Below, in pieces: positions 55,083-63,752 of a stretch of DNA of 64,000 nt. Origin of the DNA: Dehalococcoidia bacterium. GTDB taxonomy: Bacteria; Chloroflexota; Dehalococcoidia; Bin125. A model generated the notes under the pieces. It searched no databases. It was not told the DNA's origin and saw only the letters and a program-made list of their open reading frames with translations. Made by a program: the position numbers and the translations under genes. Each line of letters opens with the position of its first letter. Position 1 is the first letter of the stretch. The stretch is from the NCBI GenBank assembly GCA_022825855.1, contig JAJDWB010000013.1:248001-312000 (forward strand), written 5' to 3'.

Positions 55083-55805
55083 CTAGTCCAGCGCTTGGGG
55101 ATCCGAAGGATCGACTTCGCGCATGCGGCCGTCGCGCATGAGGAAGAGCCGTCCGGCGCGCCTGGCGATCTCCAGGTTGTGGGTGACCATCACGATCGTC
55201 TGACCGGCGCAATTCAGGTCTTCCAGCAGGCGGACGATTTCGTGCCCGGTCTGAGAATCAAGATTGCCGGTCGGCTCGTCGGCCAGGATCACATCTGGAT
55301 CGTTGGCGAGCGCCCGGGCGATGGCCACGCGCTGGCGTTCGCCGCCGGAGAGTTGCAGCGGGCGGTGCTCGAGCCGTTGTCCCAGTCCCACCGACTCCAA
55401 CAGCTCCCTGGCGCGGGCGCGGCGTTTGCGCCGCGGCCAGCCGGCCAGCGCGAGCGCAATCTCGACGTTCTGGCGCGCGGTCAGCATCTGCAAGAGGTTG
55501 AACGCCTGGAAGACGAAACCTAGCGTCTTTAGCCGCAGCGCGGCGCGTTGCTCGCCGCCCAGGCCCTGCGCGGCTTGATCCTGAACCCGTACTTCGCCCG
55601 AGGTTGGCGAGTCGATCAGGCCGAGGAGTTGCAGCAGCGTCGATTTGCCCGAGCCCGACGGTCCCGCGATGGCGATGAAGTCGCCTCGGTGGATGTCCAG
55701 ATTGAGCGGTTCCAGGGCGTGGATCGTCTGTCCGCCAAGGCGGTAGATGCGGGCCAGATTGCGGGCCGACAACAGCGGGGGGTGCTCTTCCGGTTTCGAT
55801 CCCAC
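55083..55805 (-). CDS. ABC transporter ATP-binding protein (LolD/MacB type)
   Basis: The 240-residue ATPase has Walker [10 protein letters not shown], the signature [15 protein letters not shown], Walker [15 protein letters not shown] and H-loop MVTHNLEIA. The order and the GNLDSQTG stretch are typical of the LolD/MacB/FtsE class that works with FtsX-like permeases for mechanotransmission. It starts at GTG 55805, 10 bases after the permease stop. No adaptor gene is attached to this system, in contrast to the second system at 58-63 kb. Confidence 0.92.
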
Positions 55806-55815
55806 GACTGCCGCC

Positions 55816-57027
55816 TCACTCGTAGCGCAGGGCGATGATCGGGTCGACCTGCACCGCGCGCCAGGCGGGCATCACGGCGGCCAGCATCGAGCAGAAGCTG
55901 AGGATGCCGGCCGCGCCGTACTCGATTTCCCTGGAGCGCAATCCGGCCGCGTCGGGACCCAGGGCCTGGCGGATCACGACCCGCGACATCGGGACGCCAA
56001 CCATGGAACCGGCGAGGGCGAATCCGGCCGACTCGGAGAGAATCAGCGAGAGCAACGCGCGCCTCGGCGCGCCGATGGCCCGGAGCGTGCCCAGCTCGCG
56101 CGTCCGTTCGAGGACCGACACGAACATCACGATCGCGATCAACAGGGCCGCCACCGACACGGAGGTCCAGCGCACAACGTTGAAGAGCTGGTTGACGCGG
56201 TCTAGCAACTTGCGGGCGTTCTCGGCGAGTTGTTTGTCCGAGATCACCATCAGTTCGGCGTGATCGGACTCGATCAGGGACTGCAAGGGTTCGATGTCGG
56301 ATGCCCGCCTGGGCGAGAGCAGCATGGCCGAGACTGCGTCCGGCTTCTGCAGCACCGTCTGGGCGCTCTCCAGAGGGACCAGCACCGCCGAGCGCAGCAA
56401 CTGATTGGTCTCGGGCTCGATGATTCCCTGTACTTCGAACTCGTGACCGCGCACCGAGATGGTGCTACCCAGCGCGGCCAGGGCGATTGGTCCGACAGGA
56501 GAAGGCACCTCGGTGGTCGCGGTGGCCGCCGAGGCGAAGTGCCGCGCGGCGAGGACGCCGAGGATCGCCGGCGGGGCTGCGGTTGCGCCGTTGGGTTGGG
56601 GAAAGTCGATTCGTCCAGCGACTGCCTCGGCACCGCCGAGAAAGACATCCTCTTTGCCCTGTTCGATGCCGACCAGCAGCGCCTCGGGCGGCGCGGTCGG
56701 ATAGGGCGGCGGCGCCAGCGAAGCGAACGCCACCCTCGTCGAGCGTTCCGGATCGACGGCGGGCTGGGCGAGGACGGCCCGCGCCTCGGCGTTCGAGATG
56801 GTCGAGGAGATCGGAGGCCACTCGATGCCGGACATGCCCGCCAAGCCGCGCGACTGGACGAACAACACGCCGGTGAAGCGTTGGACCTGGAGATCGAGGT
56901 CATCGGTAATGAACCGCATCACGGTCGTGACCACGATGTAGAGGTTGACGCAGACGCCGAAGCCCAGCACGGTCAGTGCGCTGCGGAGCTTCTTGGTGAG
57001 GAGTTGTTGAATGGCCAGCGTGAGCAT
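55816..57027 (-). CDS. FtsX/MacB-type ABC permease
   Basis: The 403-residue permease has one N-terminal membrane helix (about 17-38), a large extracellular domain of about 230 residues and three C-terminal helices (VRWTSVSVAALLIAIVMFVS; ALLSLILSESAGFALAG; GILSFCSMLAAVMPAW). It ends with the VDPIIALRYE motif of this family. ATG 57027 is chosen because a TACGCT -10 box lies 7 bases upstream, as in other leaderless genes here; the earlier TTG falls in the promoter. With the downstream ATPase it makes a complete MacB-like exporter or lipoprotein-handling unit. Confidence 0.85.
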   Translation of the reverse strand: MLTLAIQQLLTKKLRSALTVLGFGVCVNLYIVVTTVMRFITDDLDLQVQRFTGVLFVQSRGLAGMSGIEWPPISSTISNAEARAVLAQPAVDPERSTRVAFASLAPPPYPTAPPEALLVGIEQGKEDVFLGGAEAVAGRIDFPQPNGATAAPPAILGVLAARHFASAATATTEVPSPVGPIALAALGSTISVRGHEFEVQGIIEPETNQLLRSAVLVPLESAQTVLQKPDAVSAMLLSPRRASDIEPLQSLIESDHAELMVISDKQLAENARKLLDRVNQLFNVVRWTSVSVAALLIAIVMFVSVLERTRELGTLRAIGAPRRALLSLILSESAGFALAGSMVGVPMSRVVIRQALGPDAAGLRSREIEYGAAGILSFCSMLAAVMPAWRAVQVDPIIALRYE

Positions 57028-57068
57028 CGGACGTAGCGTATCGCGCAATCGCGCTCGGGCAGGCCAAC

Positions 57069-57908
57069 TCAGCTTCCGACGAAGATGCCGCCGTCGGGGT
57101 GGAGGATCTGTCCGGTGATGTAGCTCGACTGGTCGCTCAGCAGGAAGAGGGCCGCCTCGGCGATGTCGGAGGGTTCACCGAGGCGGTTCAGGGGAATGCC
57201 CTCGATGCGCCGCTGACGGCGTTCTTCGTCGGTGGTCACGGCCAGCGTCATCGGCGTGTCGATCAGGCCCGGCGCGACCGTGTTGACGCGGATCTGGTTG
57301 GGCGCGAGTTCCAGCGCAAGACAGCGGGTCATCATCCAGACGCCGGCCTTGGACACGCAGTAGTCGGCCATGCCGCGGATTGGCGCCTTGGCTGCGCCCG
57401 AAGAGATGTTGACGATTGCGCCGCCCTCGCCCTGGTCGATCATCCGCCGGGCGACGGCGCGGTTGGTGAGCATCACGCCGGTCAGGTTGACCGCGAGGAC
57501 TTTCTCCCAGTATTCGACCGGCTTGTGAATCACATGCCGTTGCGCGCCGCCGAGCAGGGGCTCGCCTTCGGTTACTTCGCCCGAGATGTAACCCGCGTGG
57601 GAGATGCCGGCTGCGGCGATGCACAGGTCGAGCCGGCCGAAATGTTCCAGCGCGGCCTCGGCCACGACGTCGCAGTCGGCTTCCCTGGTGACGTCGACGC
57701 CGACGTAGACGGCCTGTCCGCCGGCCGCTTCGACCATGGCCACGGTCTCTGCCCCGCGATCGTCGTCTGGCAGGCCGGCCACGATCACCGACGCGCCCTC
57801 GCGTCCCAGGCGGATCGAAGACTCGCGGCCCATGCCGCTCGCGCCTCCGGTGACCACGGCAACCTTGCCCTGGAAGCGATCCAGCGACTCTTCGGGTGGC
57901 AACGGCAT
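57069..57908 (-). CDS. Short-chain dehydrogenase/reductase with central insertion
   Basis: The 279-residue SDR has the cofactor motif VTGGASGMGRESS, NISSGAAKAPIRGM and the active-site YCVSK (Tyr and Lys). TGQILHPDGGIFVG lies at the end. A 25-residue insertion (GEVTEGEPLLGGAQRHVIHK) lies between the NAG-like AAAGIS and the catalytic Ser, longer than in common SDRs; similar insertions occur in tightly NAD-binding SDRs such as mycofactocin-linked ones, but no mycofactocin gene is seen here. GGGAG precedes the ATG. A close paralogue is at 62925-63752. Confidence 0.9.
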   Translation of the reverse strand: MPLPPEESLDRFQGKVAVVTGGASGMGRESSIRLGREGASVIVAGLPDDDRGAETVAMVEAAGGQAVYVGVDVTREADCDVVAEAALEHFGRLDLCIAAAGISHAGYISGEVTEGEPLLGGAQRHVIHKPVEYWEKVLAVNLTGVMLTNRAVARRMIDQGEGGAIVNISSGAAKAPIRGMADYCVSKAGVWMMTRCLALELAPNQIRVNTVAPGLIDTPMTLAVTTDEERRQRRIEGIPLNRLGEPSDIAEAALFLLSDQSSYITGQILHPDGGIFVGS

Positions 57909-57978: not shown

Positions 57979-59232
57979 CTATTCGTTGCGCAGAGCGGCG
58001 ATCGGATCGACGATCGTGGCTCTCCAGGCTGGATAGAGTCCGCTGAGCAGACCGATACCGGCCGCCACGCCGAACGCGGCCGCGATCGACCAGGCCTGGA
58101 TCACGGTGGTCATCTCCTGATCACCGACCGTGCGTCCGTCGACCAGCAGCGACGCAACCACGCCCAGCACGATGCCGATCAGGCCGCCGATCACGCTGAG
58201 CGCCAGGGCCTCGGTCACAAACTGATTGACGATGTCGCGCGCCGTTGCCCCGACTGCACGCCTGATGCCGATTTCCCGCGTGCGCTCGGTGACAGAGACG
58301 AGCATGATGTTCATGACGCCGATGCCACCCACCAGGAGGGAGATTCCGGCGATGCTTCCCAGGAGGATCGAGAGTGTGTTAGCCACTTCCGAGGCAGCGT
58401 CGAGCAGGTCGTCCTGGCTTTCGACCGTGAAGTCAGGTTCGGTGCGGTTGTGTCTGATGAGCAGCAGGTCGGTGAGCTGCTGCTTGAGTTCCTCGGTGTC
58501 GGCCCCGGGCGTCGCCTGTATGTCAATCTGCGTGACGCGCGCCTCTCCGGTGGGCGTGTAGAGGAAGCGGAATCGGTTGGCGAGACCGAGCAAGGGGATG
58601 AAGACCTGATCGTCGGCCTCTGCCGCGCCGCCGACCGGCTCCAGCACGCCGATCACGGTGAAGGCGAATACGATCCGGCCGGCAAGGAAGGAGAGCCGCA
58701 CTTCCTGACCGATCGGATCAACGCTGGGATAGAGCGTTTCGGCGACGCGCGAGCCGAGCACGGCGACCAGGCTTCCCGCCTCTTCGTGCAACGGCGCGAT
58801 GAACGAACCGGTCGCGACTTCGAGGTCGCGGACTTCCGCGTAGTTGGAGAAGGTGAAGACCGACTGCGCGCCTACGTTGTTTGCGCCGGCGATCGCCTGG
58901 GTTTCCCCCGTGATGTGCGAGGTGACGGCCGAGATCGCAGGATTGCCGTTGGCGGCGATCGCCTGAGCGTCGGCGTGAGTCAAGGTGGTCGTCAAGACCG
59001 CCGCGCCGCCGCCCTGCTGGGTGGTCGCGGCCGCCGACGGCTCGATGAAGATCAGATCGGTGCCGAGGCCGCGGATCTGATCGCTGACGCCCTTCTGGGT
59101 GCCCTGCCCGACGGCGATGAGCGCGATCACGGAGCTGACGCCGATCACGAGTCCAAGCAGCGTCAGCAGGCTGCGCAACCGATTGGCGACGATGGCCCGG
59201 ACAGCGATTCGGATGGCATCGAAGAGGCTCAT
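57979..59232 (-). CDS. MacB-type ABC permease
   Basis: The 417-residue permease has an N-terminal membrane helix (LLTLLGLVIGVSSVIALIAVG), a large extracellular domain with QTGGG-like and SxxAETLYP segments, and three C-terminal helices (IAGISLLVGGIGVMNIMLVS; SVIGGLIGIVLGVVASLLV; AAFGVAAGIGLLSGLYP). It ends with the family's IVDPIAALRNE. The REIGIRRAVGAT stretch is the classical MacB signature. It overlaps the ATPase stop by 4 bases (ATGA) and is the last gene of a three-gene efflux operon. Confidence 0.93.
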   Translation of the reverse strand: MSLFDAIRIAVRAIVANRLRSLLTLLGLVIGVSSVIALIAVGQGTQKGVSDQIRGLGTDLIFIEPSAAATTQQGGGAAVLTTTLTHADAQAIAANGNPAISAVTSHITGETQAIAGANNVGAQSVFTFSNYAEVRDLEVATGSFIAPLHEEAGSLVAVLGSRVAETLYPSVDPIGQEVRLSFLAGRIVFAFTVIGVLEPVGGAAEADDQVFIPLLGLANRFRFLYTPTGEARVTQIDIQATPGADTEELKQQLTDLLLIRHNRTEPDFTVESQDDLLDAASEVANTLSILLGSIAGISLLVGGIGVMNIMLVSVTERTREIGIRRAVGATARDIVNQFVTEALALSVIGGLIGIVLGVVASLLVDGRTVGDQEMTTVIQAWSIAAAFGVAAGIGLLSGLYPAWRATIVDPIAALRNE

Positions 59233-59939
59233 CGGATCGGCGCGCTTCCCTCGGCGTTTGCCGCGCCGCTCCGGCCCGTGTCCTCGATGATCTGGCCGTC
59301 TCGCATGCGCACGCTGCGATGGGCAAAGGCCGCGACTTCCGGCTCATGCGTGACAAGGATCAGGGTCATGCCTTGCTGATCGACGAGATCGCTGAGCAAG
59401 GTCATGACTTCGTGGCCGGTGGCGGTGTCCAGCGCGCCGGTCGGCTCGTCGGCGAGGACGACCAACGGATCGACCACTAACGAACGCGCGATCGCGACTC
59501 GCTGTTGCTCGCCTCCCGAGAGCTGGGTCGGCGTGTGTCCGATCCGATCGGCCAGGCCGACCCGGACCAGCGCCTCCGCCGCCCGGCGGCGTCTGTTTCG
59601 CACGCCCTGGTAGATCAACGGCAGTTCGACCTGTTCGAGTGCGTTCATTCTGGGCAGCAGCGAGTAGGACTGGAAGACGAAGCCGAAGGCGGAGCCGCGC
59701 AGCCGCGCCCGCGCGTGTTCGTCCAGCGCTGCCACGTCCCGACCTGAGAGCAGATAGGCGCCTTCGTCTGGCCGATCGAGCAAGCCGATGATGTTCATCA
59801 TCGTGCTCTTGCCCGAGCCGGATTGGCCCATGATCGCGACGAACTCGCCGCGTTCAATCTCGAGATCCACGCCATCGAGCGCGTGGATTGCGGACTCGCC
59901 CGCGCGAAACGTCTTACGCACTCCCTGCAGGCGGATCAT
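59229..59939 (-). CDS. MacB-type ABC ATP-binding protein
   Basis: The 236-residue ATPase has Walker [13 protein letters not shown], the signature [15 protein letters not shown], Walker [16 protein letters not shown] and the H-loop [10 protein letters not shown]. It energises the permease that overlaps it downstream by 4 bases. Its own ATG overlaps the adaptor stop by one base (TGATG), so all three genes are translationally coupled. In canonical MacAB the ATPase and permease are fused; here they are separate. Confidence 0.93.
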
Positions 59940-62785
59940 CAGCCGCCTCCGGCTCTGCCCGCGCCACCGGCTCCGGGAAGTCCGCCGCCGAGGCCGCCAG
60001 CCGCGCCGCCCGACGGGAGTTGCGTCGCGCTGTAAGCGATGCCGTCCGAGTCGACCCCGACCAACACCGTGTCTCCCGAGGCCAGGCCCGAGAGGATCTC
60101 CACGTCGGTACCGTCCGACTCGCCGATCTGGACTTCAATCCGTTCCCAGCCCGGCGGTTCGGATGTCGACACGGCCACAAAGAGCGCGCCCTCGATCTGT
60201 CGAACGGCTGAGGTCGGGAGCAAGACGGACTCGTCGCGCACGGCCGTGAGGAGGATGACGGTGGCGCTCATGCCGTCCACGGGAAGCTGCCGATCGTCGT
60301 CAATGGCTGCGCGTCCACCGGCCGCCGAAGCGCCGCCGCCACCGGTGAATCGCTCGAGCACGGCCCGCAACTGGGCTCGCTGTTCGTCGGTGATCTCAAA
60401 CTCCTCAGGCAATTCGACGCCTTCGGGCAAGGGATCATCGTTGGCGATTGCCTGCACGACTTGCAAGACGGTCACGCCCTCCGGTAGATCGAGCGACTGG
60501 AGGAAAGCCTGGAATCGCGCCGCCTGCTGGGGATTCGCGCCTGCTCCGCCTCCCTCGCCCCCTGCTTGTGCGCCCTGCGCAGCTGCCGGTCTGGGTTCTG
60601 GAACCGTCACGCCCAGCGCCGTCAACTCGTCCCGAACCTGCTGGATCTCGGGCGGACTGAGCACCGTCGCCTCGACGGCGTAGGTCACCACGCCCTGCTC
60701 CACGTTGGGCACCCTGCTGATCGTCGTAATCTGCACCGGATACTGGACGCCCTCGATCGCATCGAACAGGGCAACCCCGACCTGCAGGTCGGCGAGCTCG
60801 AAGATCTCCGCCTCGGTGACGGTGAGAGAGACGATCACCTGGTCCGGTGTGCTGATTACGATCGCTGTGGCGCCCGAGCCAACGCGATCGCCGGGATTGA
60901 CGTTGATCTGTTCGACCACGCCGGCGAACGGCGCCTTGATCAATAGATCGTCCATGGCCGAGCGCGCCTGCTCGACCGAAATCTCTGCCAGCCGAACGTT
61001 CTCTTGCTGCTGGGCGATCGCGTTGCCGGTCGCGCCGGTCATCAACTCGTCATGACGCGCTCGGGCTTCGTCCAGCGACGATTGCGCGCCGAGCAAGGCC
61101 AACTCCGCTTCCAGGACATCCTCCTCGGTGGCCGGGGCCAACAGTTCGTCGAGGGTCGCCTGGGCGGCATCCTGGTGCGACCGCGCCGCTGTAAGCGACT
61201 GCTGCGCCTGGAAGACATCATCGGGATCGGCATCGCCGAGCAGGTCGTCGAGTTCGGCCTGGGCGGCGTCAAGGCCGGCCTGCGCCGCAGCGACCGCCTG
61301 CTCGGCCCGGAACACGTCGTCGTCTTCCGCTGGCGAGAGGAGATCGTCAAGGTGTCCTTCGGCGACTTCGAGCGCACCACGCGCGGCGGCCACGGCCTGT
61401 TCCGCACGGTACAGCTCGGCGTCGGTCGGCGGCGCCACGAGTTCATCCAGTCTGGCCCGGGCTGCCGCGTGGGACGCCTGGGCTGCTTCGAAGGACTCTC
61501 TGGCCTGTTCGACTGCATCCGGGTCCGGATCCAGCAGCGCGTCCAACCGAGCCTCGGCGGCCGCCAAGGCCGACACGGCTGCTTCGTAGGAGTTAGACGC
61601 CGTTTCCCAGCCGAGTTGGGCGCTGATCAGCTCGCGGGCACGGCGTTCGAGCGTTGATCCGCTGTTCTCGGTCTTGGATTCAAGCAGTTCAATTTCCGAC
61701 TCGGGCAATGGTGGAGGCGCGTCGCAGATCTCCGGCAGGACCACGATGTCGTCGCAGAAATCCTCGTGGGCGCGCTCGAGGCGATACTCGGCGGCAGTGA
61801 GCGTCTCCTCGGCGTTGCTGACAGGCACGCGGGCCTGGAGGGCGTTGGATCTCGCCGTCTCCAGTTCGGCGACGCTCGGCTCCTCCGTCAGCGCCGAGTA
61901 CGCCTGCTCGGCGCTGAGCAGTTGCGACGCAGCCGACGCGACTGCCTGCTCGGCGGTTGCGATCTCGGCAGCGCTCGGTTCATCGCTCAGCGATTCCAGC
62001 GATTCCTCGGCTTGCGACAGTTGTCCGCGCGCATTGGCGACTGCCTGCTCAGCCGAGGCGAGTTCCGTCGCAGTGGGCTCGCCGATCAGGTCGGCCAAGG
62101 CCTCCCGCGCGGCAGACAACTGTGATTCCGCGTTCGCGACCGCCTGGGTGGCTCGTGCGATCTGGGCGGCGGAGGCGTCCTCGGTCAGGTCGGCCAGAGC
62201 CTGGGCGGCATTCGAGACCTGGACCAGCGCATTGGCGAGCGCCTGTTCGGCGCCGGCGATGTCGCCCGGGTCAGGAGGGTTCTGCAGTTCGTCCAGCGCC
62301 GCGGCGGCGCTGACGAGCTGCGCCTCGGCGTTGGCGAGGCTGCGCTCGGAGGCGGCGATCTCCGCTGCCGATGCGCTCTCAAGCAGGTCTTCAAGCCGGA
62401 GCTGGGCCAGACGGAGCTGAATCTCGGCCGTCTCGAGTTGACGTTCGGCGTCGCTCGTATCCAGCCGTGCCAGCACATCTCCCTGAGCGACTTCGTCGCC
62501 GACTTGAGCCGCCACCTCCGCGACCTCGCCGCCCGCGGCGAAGCTGAGCGATGCCGTCTGTGCGGCCTCGGCCGAACCGGACAACTCGAGCGTGGTGGTC
62601 AGCCGACCGGAGGTGGCAGTGACGCGCTGGGGTTCGAAGACTGCTTCCTCTTCCTCGCCTTGAGTCAGGAACCAGGCCAGCACCGCGATCACGGCAACAG
62701 TAGCCAGCACCAGCAGGTAGAGGACACGCCGGGGCCTGCGTCGTCCCCGCACGAGGGCATCGATATCAACGTCTTGTGTGCTCAA
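59939..62785 (-). CDS. Giant MacA/HlyD-type periplasmic-adaptor-like protein with 33-residue repeats
   Basis: The 948-residue adaptor has a cytoplasmic basic N terminus, one membrane helix (about 21-40) and a split barrel-sandwich domain (about 65-110 and 618-650). A huge central helical hairpin lies between. Six units with anchor residues at 143, 176, 209, 242, 275 and 308 go up; six at 425, 458, 491, 524, 557 and 590 go down. All are spaced exactly 33 residues. The tip holds Cys344 and Cys354. The C-terminal barrel carries a Gly/Ala-rich insertion. Usual adaptors are 350-450 residues. The start is probably TTG 62785 (STQDVDIDALV). It is first in the adaptor-ATPase-permease operon. Confidence 0.9.
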   Translation of the reverse strand: MSTQDVDIDALVRGRRRPRRVLYLLVLATVAVIAVLAWFLTQGEEEEAVFEPQRVTATSGRLTTTLELSGSAEAAQTASLSFAAGGEVAEVAAQVGDEVAQGDVLARLDTSDAERQLETAEIQLRLAQLRLEDLLESASAAEIAASERSLANAEAQLVSAAAALDELQNPPDPGDIAGAEQALANALVQVSNAAQALADLTEDASAAQIARATQAVANAESQLSAAREALADLIGEPTATELASAEQAVANARGQLSQAEESLESLSDEPSAAEIATAEQAVASAASQLLSAEQAYSALTEEPSVAELETARSNALQARVPVSNAEETLTAAEYRLERAHEDFCDDIVVLPEICDAPPPLPESEIELLESKTENSGSTLERRARELISAQLGWETASNSYEAAVSALAAAEARLDALLDPDPDAVEQARESFEAAQASHAAARARLDELVAPPTDAELYRAEQAVAAARGALEVAEGHLDDLLSPAEDDDVFRAEQAVAAAQAGLDAAQAELDDLLGDADPDDVFQAQQSLTAARSHQDAAQATLDELLAPATEEDVLEAELALLGAQSSLDEARARHDELMTGATGNAIAQQQENVRLAEISVEQARSAMDDLLIKAPFAGVVEQINVNPGDRVGSGATAIVISTPDQVIVSLTVTEAEIFELADLQVGVALFDAIEGVQYPVQITTISRVPNVEQGVVTYAVEATVLSPPEIQQVRDELTALGVTVPEPRPAAAQGAQAGGEGGGAGANPQQAARFQAFLQSLDLPEGVTVLQVVQAIANDDPLPEGVELPEEFEITDEQRAQLRAVLERFTGGGGASAAGGRAAIDDDRQLPVDGMSATVILLTAVRDESVLLPTSAVRQIEGALFVAVSTSEPPGWERIEVQIGESDGTDVEILSGLASGDTVLVGVDSDGIAYSATQLPSGGAAGGLGGGLPGAGGAGRAGGG

Positions 62786-62924: not shown

Positions 62925-63752
62925 CTAGCCGGTGAACAGTCCTCCGTCGGGATGGAGGATCTGTCCACTGATGTAACTGGCGTGGTCGCTGAGCAGGAAG
63001 AGAGTGGCCTCGGCGATATCTTCGGCTTCGCCGAGGCGGCCGAGCGGGACGAAGCGCTCGAAGGCCGCGCGGCGCTCCTCGTCCTGCGAGAGTCCGAGCG
63101 CCATTGGCGTGTCGATCACGCCGGGCGCGACGGTATTGACCCGGATCTGGTGCGGCGCGAGTTCGAGCGCCAGGACCCGGGTGAGCATCCAGACTCCGGT
63201 CTTGGAGACCGAGTACTCGGCCGAGCCGGGCATCGGAATCTTGGCCGCGCCGGAGGAGATGTTGACGATCGCGCCGCCGTCGCCCTGGGCAATCATGTAT
63301 CGAGCGACGGCGCGATTGGTCAGCATCACGCCGGTCAGATTGACGGAAAGCACCTTTTCCCAGAACTCAACCGGCTTGTTGATGATGTGTCCGGCTCGGC
63401 GATCGGCGGCCAGAGCATCGTCCGGGACTTCGCCCGACACATAGTGGGCGTTGAGGATGCAGGCCGCGGCCATGCAGAGGTCGATCCGGCCGAAGGCGTC
63501 GACGGCTGCCTGCGCGGCGGCGTCGCAGTCGGCCTCACGCGACACGTCGGCGCCGACGTAAATGGCGTTGCCTCCGGCATCGGTGATTTGCGCGACGACA
63601 TCTGCGCCGCGCGGGTCGTCGGGCAGTCCGACGACGGCGACCGACGCGCCTTCCCGGGCCAGGCGGATCGATGTCTCCGCGCCCATGCCGGAGGCGCCGC
63701 CTGTGACCAGGGCGACCTTGCCCTGGAATCGCTGGATGCCGGTTGAGGCCAT
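62925..63752 (-). CDS. Short-chain dehydrogenase/reductase, paralogue of the 57 kb gene
   Basis: This 275-residue SDR has LVTGGASGMGAETSIRLARE, VNISSGAAKIPMPGSAEYSV and the active-site YSVSK. ISGQILHPDGGLFTG is at the end. It carries the same central insertion (AADRRAGHIINKPVEFWEK) as the 57069-57908 product and aligns with it from end to end. The pair flank the giant-adaptor operon. It is followed upstream on the same strand by a DUF35 gene cut by the window edge, so it may belong to a thiolase/DUF35-type degradation cluster that continues outside. Confidence 0.9.
   Translation of the reverse strand: MASTGIQRFQGKVALVTGGASGMGAETSIRLAREGASVAVVGLPDDPRGADVVAQITDAGGNAIYVGADVSREADCDAAAQAAVDAFGRIDLCMAAACILNAHYVSGEVPDDALAADRRAGHIINKPVEFWEKVLSVNLTGVMLTNRAVARYMIAQGDGGAIVNISSGAAKIPMPGSAEYSVSKTGVWMLTRVLALELAPHQIRVNTVAPGVIDTPMALGLSQDEERRAAFERFVPLGRLGEAEDIAEATLFLLSDHASYISGQILHPDGGLFTG

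Follow-up and report, generated by a model that had tools for sequence, protein, structure and literature searches.

The exporter operon and its adaptor gene

The window (the whole stretch of DNA that was analysed, 64,000 nucleotides from a Chloroflexota bacterium) carries on its minus strand an operon consisting of an adaptor gene, an ABC ATPase gene and a MacB-type permease gene. The following features were assigned to this region.

59939..62785, minus strand: adaptor gene encoding 948 amino acids, with HlyD_3 and Biotin_lipoyl_2 above the Pfam cut-offs
62666..62731, minus strand: N-terminal transmembrane helix (residues 19-40), inner-membrane anchor, from the sequence and an AlphaFold helix at 19-40
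62456..62608, minus strand: first half of the lipoyl domain (residues about 60-110), with a Biotin_lipoyl_2 match at 80-109
61763..62455, minus strand: ascending arm (arm A, residues 111-341), with seven 33-residue rows and six capped breaks
61631..61762, minus strand: 44-residue tip (residues 342-385), holding both cysteines of the protein, C344 and C354
60938..61630, minus strand: descending arm (arm B, residues 386-616), with seven 33-residue rows and six capped breaks
59939..60937, minus strand: second half of the lipoyl domain, beta-barrel and membrane-proximal region (residues 617-948), with an HlyD_3 match at 616-712
59229..59939, minus strand: ABC ATPase (PF00005), operon partner, overlapping the stop of the adaptor gene
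57979..59232, minus strand: MacB-type permease (MacB_PCD and FtsX), from Pfam/NCBIfam matches

The open reading frame at 59939-62785 is real and starts with TTG, while relatives from the same genus use GTG or TTG in the same place. The repeat array lies between matches to Biotin_lipoyl_2 (32.5 bits for a cut-off of 29.8) and HlyD_3 (39.8 bits for a cut-off of 22.2), and a lipoyl (barrel-sandwich) domain split around a helical hairpin is present. In the AlphaFold model of the window protein, the region 617-948 could be aligned structurally to MacA, BesA and Spr0693. The first-pass annotation had described the protein as an efflux adaptor, which is borne out by the HlyD_3 and Biotin_lipoyl_2 domains together with the MacB-type operon: it is a HlyD/MacA-type adaptor of a MacAB-like ABC exporter. 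The NCBIfam model RND_mfp (TIGR01730) scored 91.1 bits, just under its cut-off of 94.9, and matched in three pieces, as is expected for a profile interrupted by a long insert.

Sequence relatives with solved structures were ordinary adaptors only, none of them with arrays. The window protein found no match among plasmid records, and the relative L075, which carries three pairs of helix breaks, matched only ordinary adaptors there, over about one third of its length. A single scan of genome contigs found two loci, and the nearest named records were genomes from Chloroflexi metagenomes.

Downstream of the adaptor and on the same strand, an ATPase gene was found in 81 of 95 relatives and a permease gene in 75, and for several of those lacking one the edge of the contig is reached; the order adaptor-ATPase-permease is widely conserved. 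The host genome (96% complete) gave no match to TolC/OEP (PF02321) and none to Omp85, both of which were positive in seven diderm control genomes. A classical outer membrane is therefore unlikely, as the first-pass annotation had suspected. Two FtsW/RodA genes were identified in the same genome, which therefore probably makes peptidoglycan.

The exporter operon is flanked by two genes for short-chain dehydrogenases (57069-57908 and 62925-63752, both on the minus strand), whose products share 69% identity over 270 residues, as if one were a duplicate of the other. At 55083-57048 (minus strand), the ATPase and permease genes of another ABC transporter of the FtsX/MacB type have no adjoining adaptor gene, and this permease shares only 29% identity over 154 residues with that of the exporter operon.

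The 33-residue unit

A six-plus-six array with a spacing of exactly 33 residues had been described for this protein, and its anchors are present at I143, I176, I209, L242, I275 and L308 and again at V425, L458, V491, V524, V557 and I590, each being a hydrophobic residue five positions after a helix break. At a lag of 33, arm A is 42.6% identical to itself and arm B 33.5%, while the highest values at any lag in 500 shuffles were 24% and 22%, respectively. In the protein itself, lags of 66 and 99 were also prominent. Units of the window protein are about 45% identical within an arm, and the pattern of the array is kept in relatives from the genus and the family.

The break follows the motif G-P-[TSD]-x-x-[DE]-[ILV]. 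Glycine precedes it, proline or alanine stands at the break, threonine, serine or aspartate serves as N-cap, an acidic residue follows at +3 and then comes the hydrophobic anchor; these caps account for five non-heptad residues per unit, in which one helix stops and the next one starts. In 338 units of exactly 33 residues, the core positions are 5, 8, 12, 15, 19, 22, 26 and 29 counted from the break and alternate between large residues (I/L/V) and alanine, except at the last. The core spacing of 3-4-3-4 is purely heptad, and the periodicity calculated for the helices only has its peak at 3.45-3.5. The unit consists of four heptads and a five-residue cap. Deviating units have 26 or 40 residues, being one heptad shorter or longer, and no units of 22 or 44 residues were seen among the arrays of relatives.

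The period had earlier been interpreted as three hendecads, a reading that was rejected: the peak is not at 3.667, the core spacing is that of heptads, and the variants of 26 and 40 residues change the length by 7 residues at a time rather than by 11. The nearly straight coiled coil proposed along with it is not supported either, as the arms are not single straight helices and carry a capped break every 33 residues. The alanine at alternate core positions recalls the Alacoils, which are antiparallel.

Mirror symmetry of the two arms

For the break, a position-specific profile was derived by iteration and then used to score relatives at the level of class and phylum; on shuffled hairpins no position exceeded 4 bits with this profile. 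About 100 relatives from the Chloroflexota carry between one and eight pairs of breaks per hairpin. With the mirror axis set by the outermost pair, the mirror residue itself scored as a break for 84.6% of the 429 inner breaks, compared with about 1% at one residue to either side and a background of 1.9%. Part of this match is expected from the common period and the fixed distances to the base of the hairpin. The equal number of units and the mirrored odd units are not explained by these two factors. Odd spacings are mirrored in L027 (26,26,33,33,33,33 / 33,33,33,33,26,26), L107 (26,33,33 / 33,33,26) and L128 (26,97,40 / 40,97,26), and five members of the phylum with eight pairs, L130 among them, have one spacing of 26 followed by six of 33 on the way up and six of 33 followed by one of 26 on the way down. 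Both the exact mirror partners and the mirrored odd spacings support the antiparallel hairpin with equal arms that had been proposed from the window protein.

Arms with unequal numbers of units, which the first-pass annotation had named as the evidence against such a hairpin, were looked for and make up a minority only. When a tolerance of a few residues was allowed and weak partners were included, all breaks were partnered in 76 of 100 proteins and 39 of 755 breaks were without a partner, most being paired. In L017 the descending arm has more breaks than the ascending one, and in L049 the two arms have 4 and 5 breaks. No clear signal emerged for charge pairing or covariation of units that face each other.

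The tandem units of L051 are near-identical (95 of 99 DNA bases), and the relative L050 contains an N gap inside the array; assembly collapse is therefore likely for the 4 versus 5 breaks of L049. Short-read assembly may lose units in L049, L050 and L051, and unit counts for these proteins need care.

The distribution of cysteines follows the same division into arms and tip. None was found in 19,624 arm residues, while the tips contain no cysteine in 43 of 100 proteins, two in 56 and four in one, but never a single one. As the simplest reading, this pattern suggests a tip head closed by a disulfide. Tips with a cysteine pair related to [FY]C..C..P[LI] sit on hairpins with two to seven pairs of breaks. 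The TolC-binding motif at the tip of adaptor hairpins is RxxxLxxxxxxS, a pattern found in only 2 of 100 tips.

Predicted structure and length of the hairpin

The AlphaFold monomer of the window protein, calculated from an alignment of 12 sequences, reached a pLDDT of about 80-95 for residues 240-450. Beyond the arms the model was weak, with a pTM of 0.28 and values below 50 in the lipoyl half. Its helices are about 29-30 residues long with breaks of 3-4 residues. The structure prediction that had been suggested as a check gave paired helices, confidently only in the parts of the arms near the tip.

Since the full-length model of the window protein was too weak at the lipoyl domain, L075 was modelled as well (24 sequences, pLDDT 82.7, pTM 0.36). 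Its helices 129-154, 158-187, 191-220 and 224-272 face the helices 303-349, 353-382, 386-415 and 419-445 as a mirror set. The alignment of this model with MacA covered 327 of the 340 MacA residues at 5.0 Å (Z 20.6). With EmrA (8zal) the model aligned over 283 residues at 7.5 Å, and with CusB less well (Z 14-16). From its arms, 235 residues could be aligned with an SMC coiled coil at 16.7 Å. For the window protein, residues 229-486 of the model likewise aligned with extended hairpins or long coiled-coil structures, and residues 637-914 with MacA (Z 12.8, 152 residues, 8.2 Å). The rmsd to the SMC coiled coil amounts to 17-21 Å, and bends are therefore likely in the hairpin. Read from the structural alignments only, a hairpin that is extended and somewhat bent, and not folded in the manner of CusB, is favoured by the models. 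At 0.15 nm per residue, the 231 residues of an arm would span about 35 nm if extended, so that the long arms of near 30 nm proposed earlier agree with the predicted range of about 30-35 nm.

Paired gain and loss of units

The first-pass annotation had suggested a survey of homologues for steps of one unit up and one unit down, and such steps occur. L013, from the same genus as the window protein, is shorter by exactly 33 residues in each arm, and L061 exceeds L058 by exactly 33 residues in each arm. Compared with its close paralogue L117, L118 has gained 26 residues in the ascending and 33 in the descending arm, which leaves the number of units equal and the lengths unequal by one heptad. L117 and L118 are near-identical adaptors encoded in one genome (G047), and their difference could represent a very recent paired change.

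In a tree calculated from the domains other than the hairpin (60 clean rows, arms left out), made by a quick method and with many open forks, the number of pairs changed at least 17 times. It is clustered on this tree, with 17 changes compared to 35.8 in shuffles, and is nearly constant in the genus of the window protein. In 49 of 51 proteins the units resemble those of their own arm more than those of the other arm. The two arms therefore grew by separate local duplications, from which we infer that their equality must be kept by selection.

Comparison with known adaptors

With the same break profile, exactly two breaks were found in YbhG of E. coli (26.6 and 23.8 bits), one in each arm. One follows the first lipoyl half at a distance of 29 residues and the other precedes the second half by 33, a register common to the window protein and most of its relatives, and YbhG belongs to the HlyD_3 family like the window adaptor. 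Because of this shared register, the hairpin of the window protein looks like a YbhG hairpin with inserted pairs of modules. YbhG differs in having a single pair, where the window protein has six, with 71 residues separating its two breaks, and no tip cysteines; its host has an outer membrane and its partner is the YbhFSR ABC exporter, whereas a MacB-type permease is encoded here. Judged by its sequence, the window protein shares the hairpin type of YbhG but does not qualify as its orthologue under the NCBIfam cut-off (equivalog PRK03598, 64.6 bits against 393).

MacA of E. coli (MacAB-TolC) is similar in its MacB-type partner and in its lipoyl, barrel and membrane-proximal domains, but its hairpin is far shorter and it works with TolC, which is without a match in the genome of the window. 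The Spr0693-0694-0695 system of Streptococcus pneumoniae is a MacAB-like pump of a monoderm with a hexameric nanotube and no outer-membrane partner (PMC5768738); unlike in the window adaptor, the helical barrel of Spr0693 is only 5.6 nm high and contains no repeated modules.

According to a section of a review on adaptors (PMC4446572), their hairpins lengthen by the insertion of heptads in both helices. In contrast to such heptad steps, the step in the window adaptor is a self-contained, capped module of 33 residues, with up to eight per arm among relatives. The large hairpins of the Gram-positive adaptors MesE, ComB and YknX are described as hard to rationalise in the section dealing with them, which reports no 33-residue array (PMC4446572); going by this description, they resemble the window adaptor in having long hairpins in the absence of an outer membrane. 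Lengthening by heptads in both helices, unexplained large hairpins in Gram-positive bacteria and a TolC-free MacAB-like nanotube are thus already known. No report of such arrays or of Chloroflexota adaptors was found in the open-access literature searched, nor of the capped 33-residue paired module, the series of one to eight pairs, the mirror register or the cysteine rule of the tip.

Proposed mechanism and alternative explanations

The modules with their mirrored register, the changes made in both arms together, the operon and the missing TolC were shown by computation, and the following mechanism is proposed around them. The protein would serve a MacAB-like ABC exporter as its adaptor, in a bacterium of the Chloroflexota without TolC/Omp85 matches, its YbhG-type hairpin having been lengthened by 33-residue modules added to both arms. 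Since the modules are added on both arms, each outgoing break would face a return break at the same height. The extended antiparallel hairpin is predicted to reach about 35 nm, and six copies of it may form a tube by analogy with MacA and Spr0693. The modules would act as spacers that hold the putatively disulfide-closed tip, as docking end, far from the membrane, and export would proceed through a tube ending far from the membrane. Taken as a whole, the combination of YbhG-type hairpin, paired modules, extended tube and docking tip is probably the best explanation.

A strong rival holds that length drifts while the two arms stay matched: tandem duplication alters the arms, selection only matches them to each other and the absolute length is meaningless. 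This is quite possible, as the number of pairs varies from one to eight with at least 17 changes, the length shows no relation to peptidoglycan genes, and the paralogues L117 and L118 within one genome are one unit per arm apart. The clustering of pair number on the tree, its near constancy in the genus of the window protein and the retention of the tip cysteine pair in many members with two to seven pairs argue against a length without meaning. The hairpin could also be folded like a carpenter's rule, with two-helix segments folding back at the pairs of breaks into a compact, CusB-like bundle, so that no 35 nm rod would result. Such folding would equally need paired breaks at equal height, and a Gly-Pro-N-cap break resembles a helix corner, which counts in its favour. 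For CusB, part of the review cited above describes a hairpin that doubles back on itself to form a short bundle of four helices (PMC4446572). We nevertheless judge folding back to be unlikely, because the model of L075 fits the extended MacA (327 residues, 5.0 Å) and EmrA (8zal) better than CusB, and its arms, like residues 229-486 of the window protein, align to long SMC coiled coils.

Two further explanations carry little weight. In a one-directional helical solenoid or binding array, every unit would be a separately capped helix, and the units do contain such helices of about 29 residues; it offers no reason, however, for mirrored spacings and equal numbers on either side of the tip, and the array is flanked by both halves of the lipoyl domain, which makes this reading very improbable. 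An array created by misassembly of near-identical repeats is hardly credible: the 95 of 99 identical DNA bases in units of L051 and the N gap within the array of L050 would fit it, but the units of the window protein are just about 45% identical within an arm, and the same pattern was found in members of the genus from separate assemblies.

Hairpin length and the cell envelope

For the long hairpin, a role in spanning a thick wall had been considered in the first-pass annotation. In 78 genomes, the median hairpin length was 336 residues in the presence of FtsW/RodA and 396 in their absence (p = 0.53). Hairpins from genomes with and without these peptidoglycan genes thus do not differ in length, which leaves the wall-spanning role unsupported, and a ruler of peptidoglycan thickness was rejected on the same result.

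Cryo-tomography of Tepidiforma, a member of the Dehalococcoidia, revealed a periplasm of 40 nm and a peptidoglycan layer of 20 nm with an S-layer above (PMC10284905). These dimensions, although from a different organism, are close to the predicted reach of the hairpin. Tentatively, and with considerable doubt, the system could be viewed as a TolC-independent trans-envelope exporter, in which the number of paired modules would set the distance between tip and membrane and the disulfide-closed tip might meet a partner in an outer layer, e.g. the S-layer.

Part of a review (PMC4446572) raises the open question of why adaptor hairpins, which can be very long, are retained in bacteria that have no outer membrane. 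The graded series of one to eight pairs, found on one type of transporter and often with one type of tip, allows the role of hairpin length to be tested. It also provides a rule for antiparallel coiled-coil architecture, namely four heptads and a five-residue cap that are nearly always paired, and the count of mirrored breaks gives a readout of adaptor length from the sequence alone.
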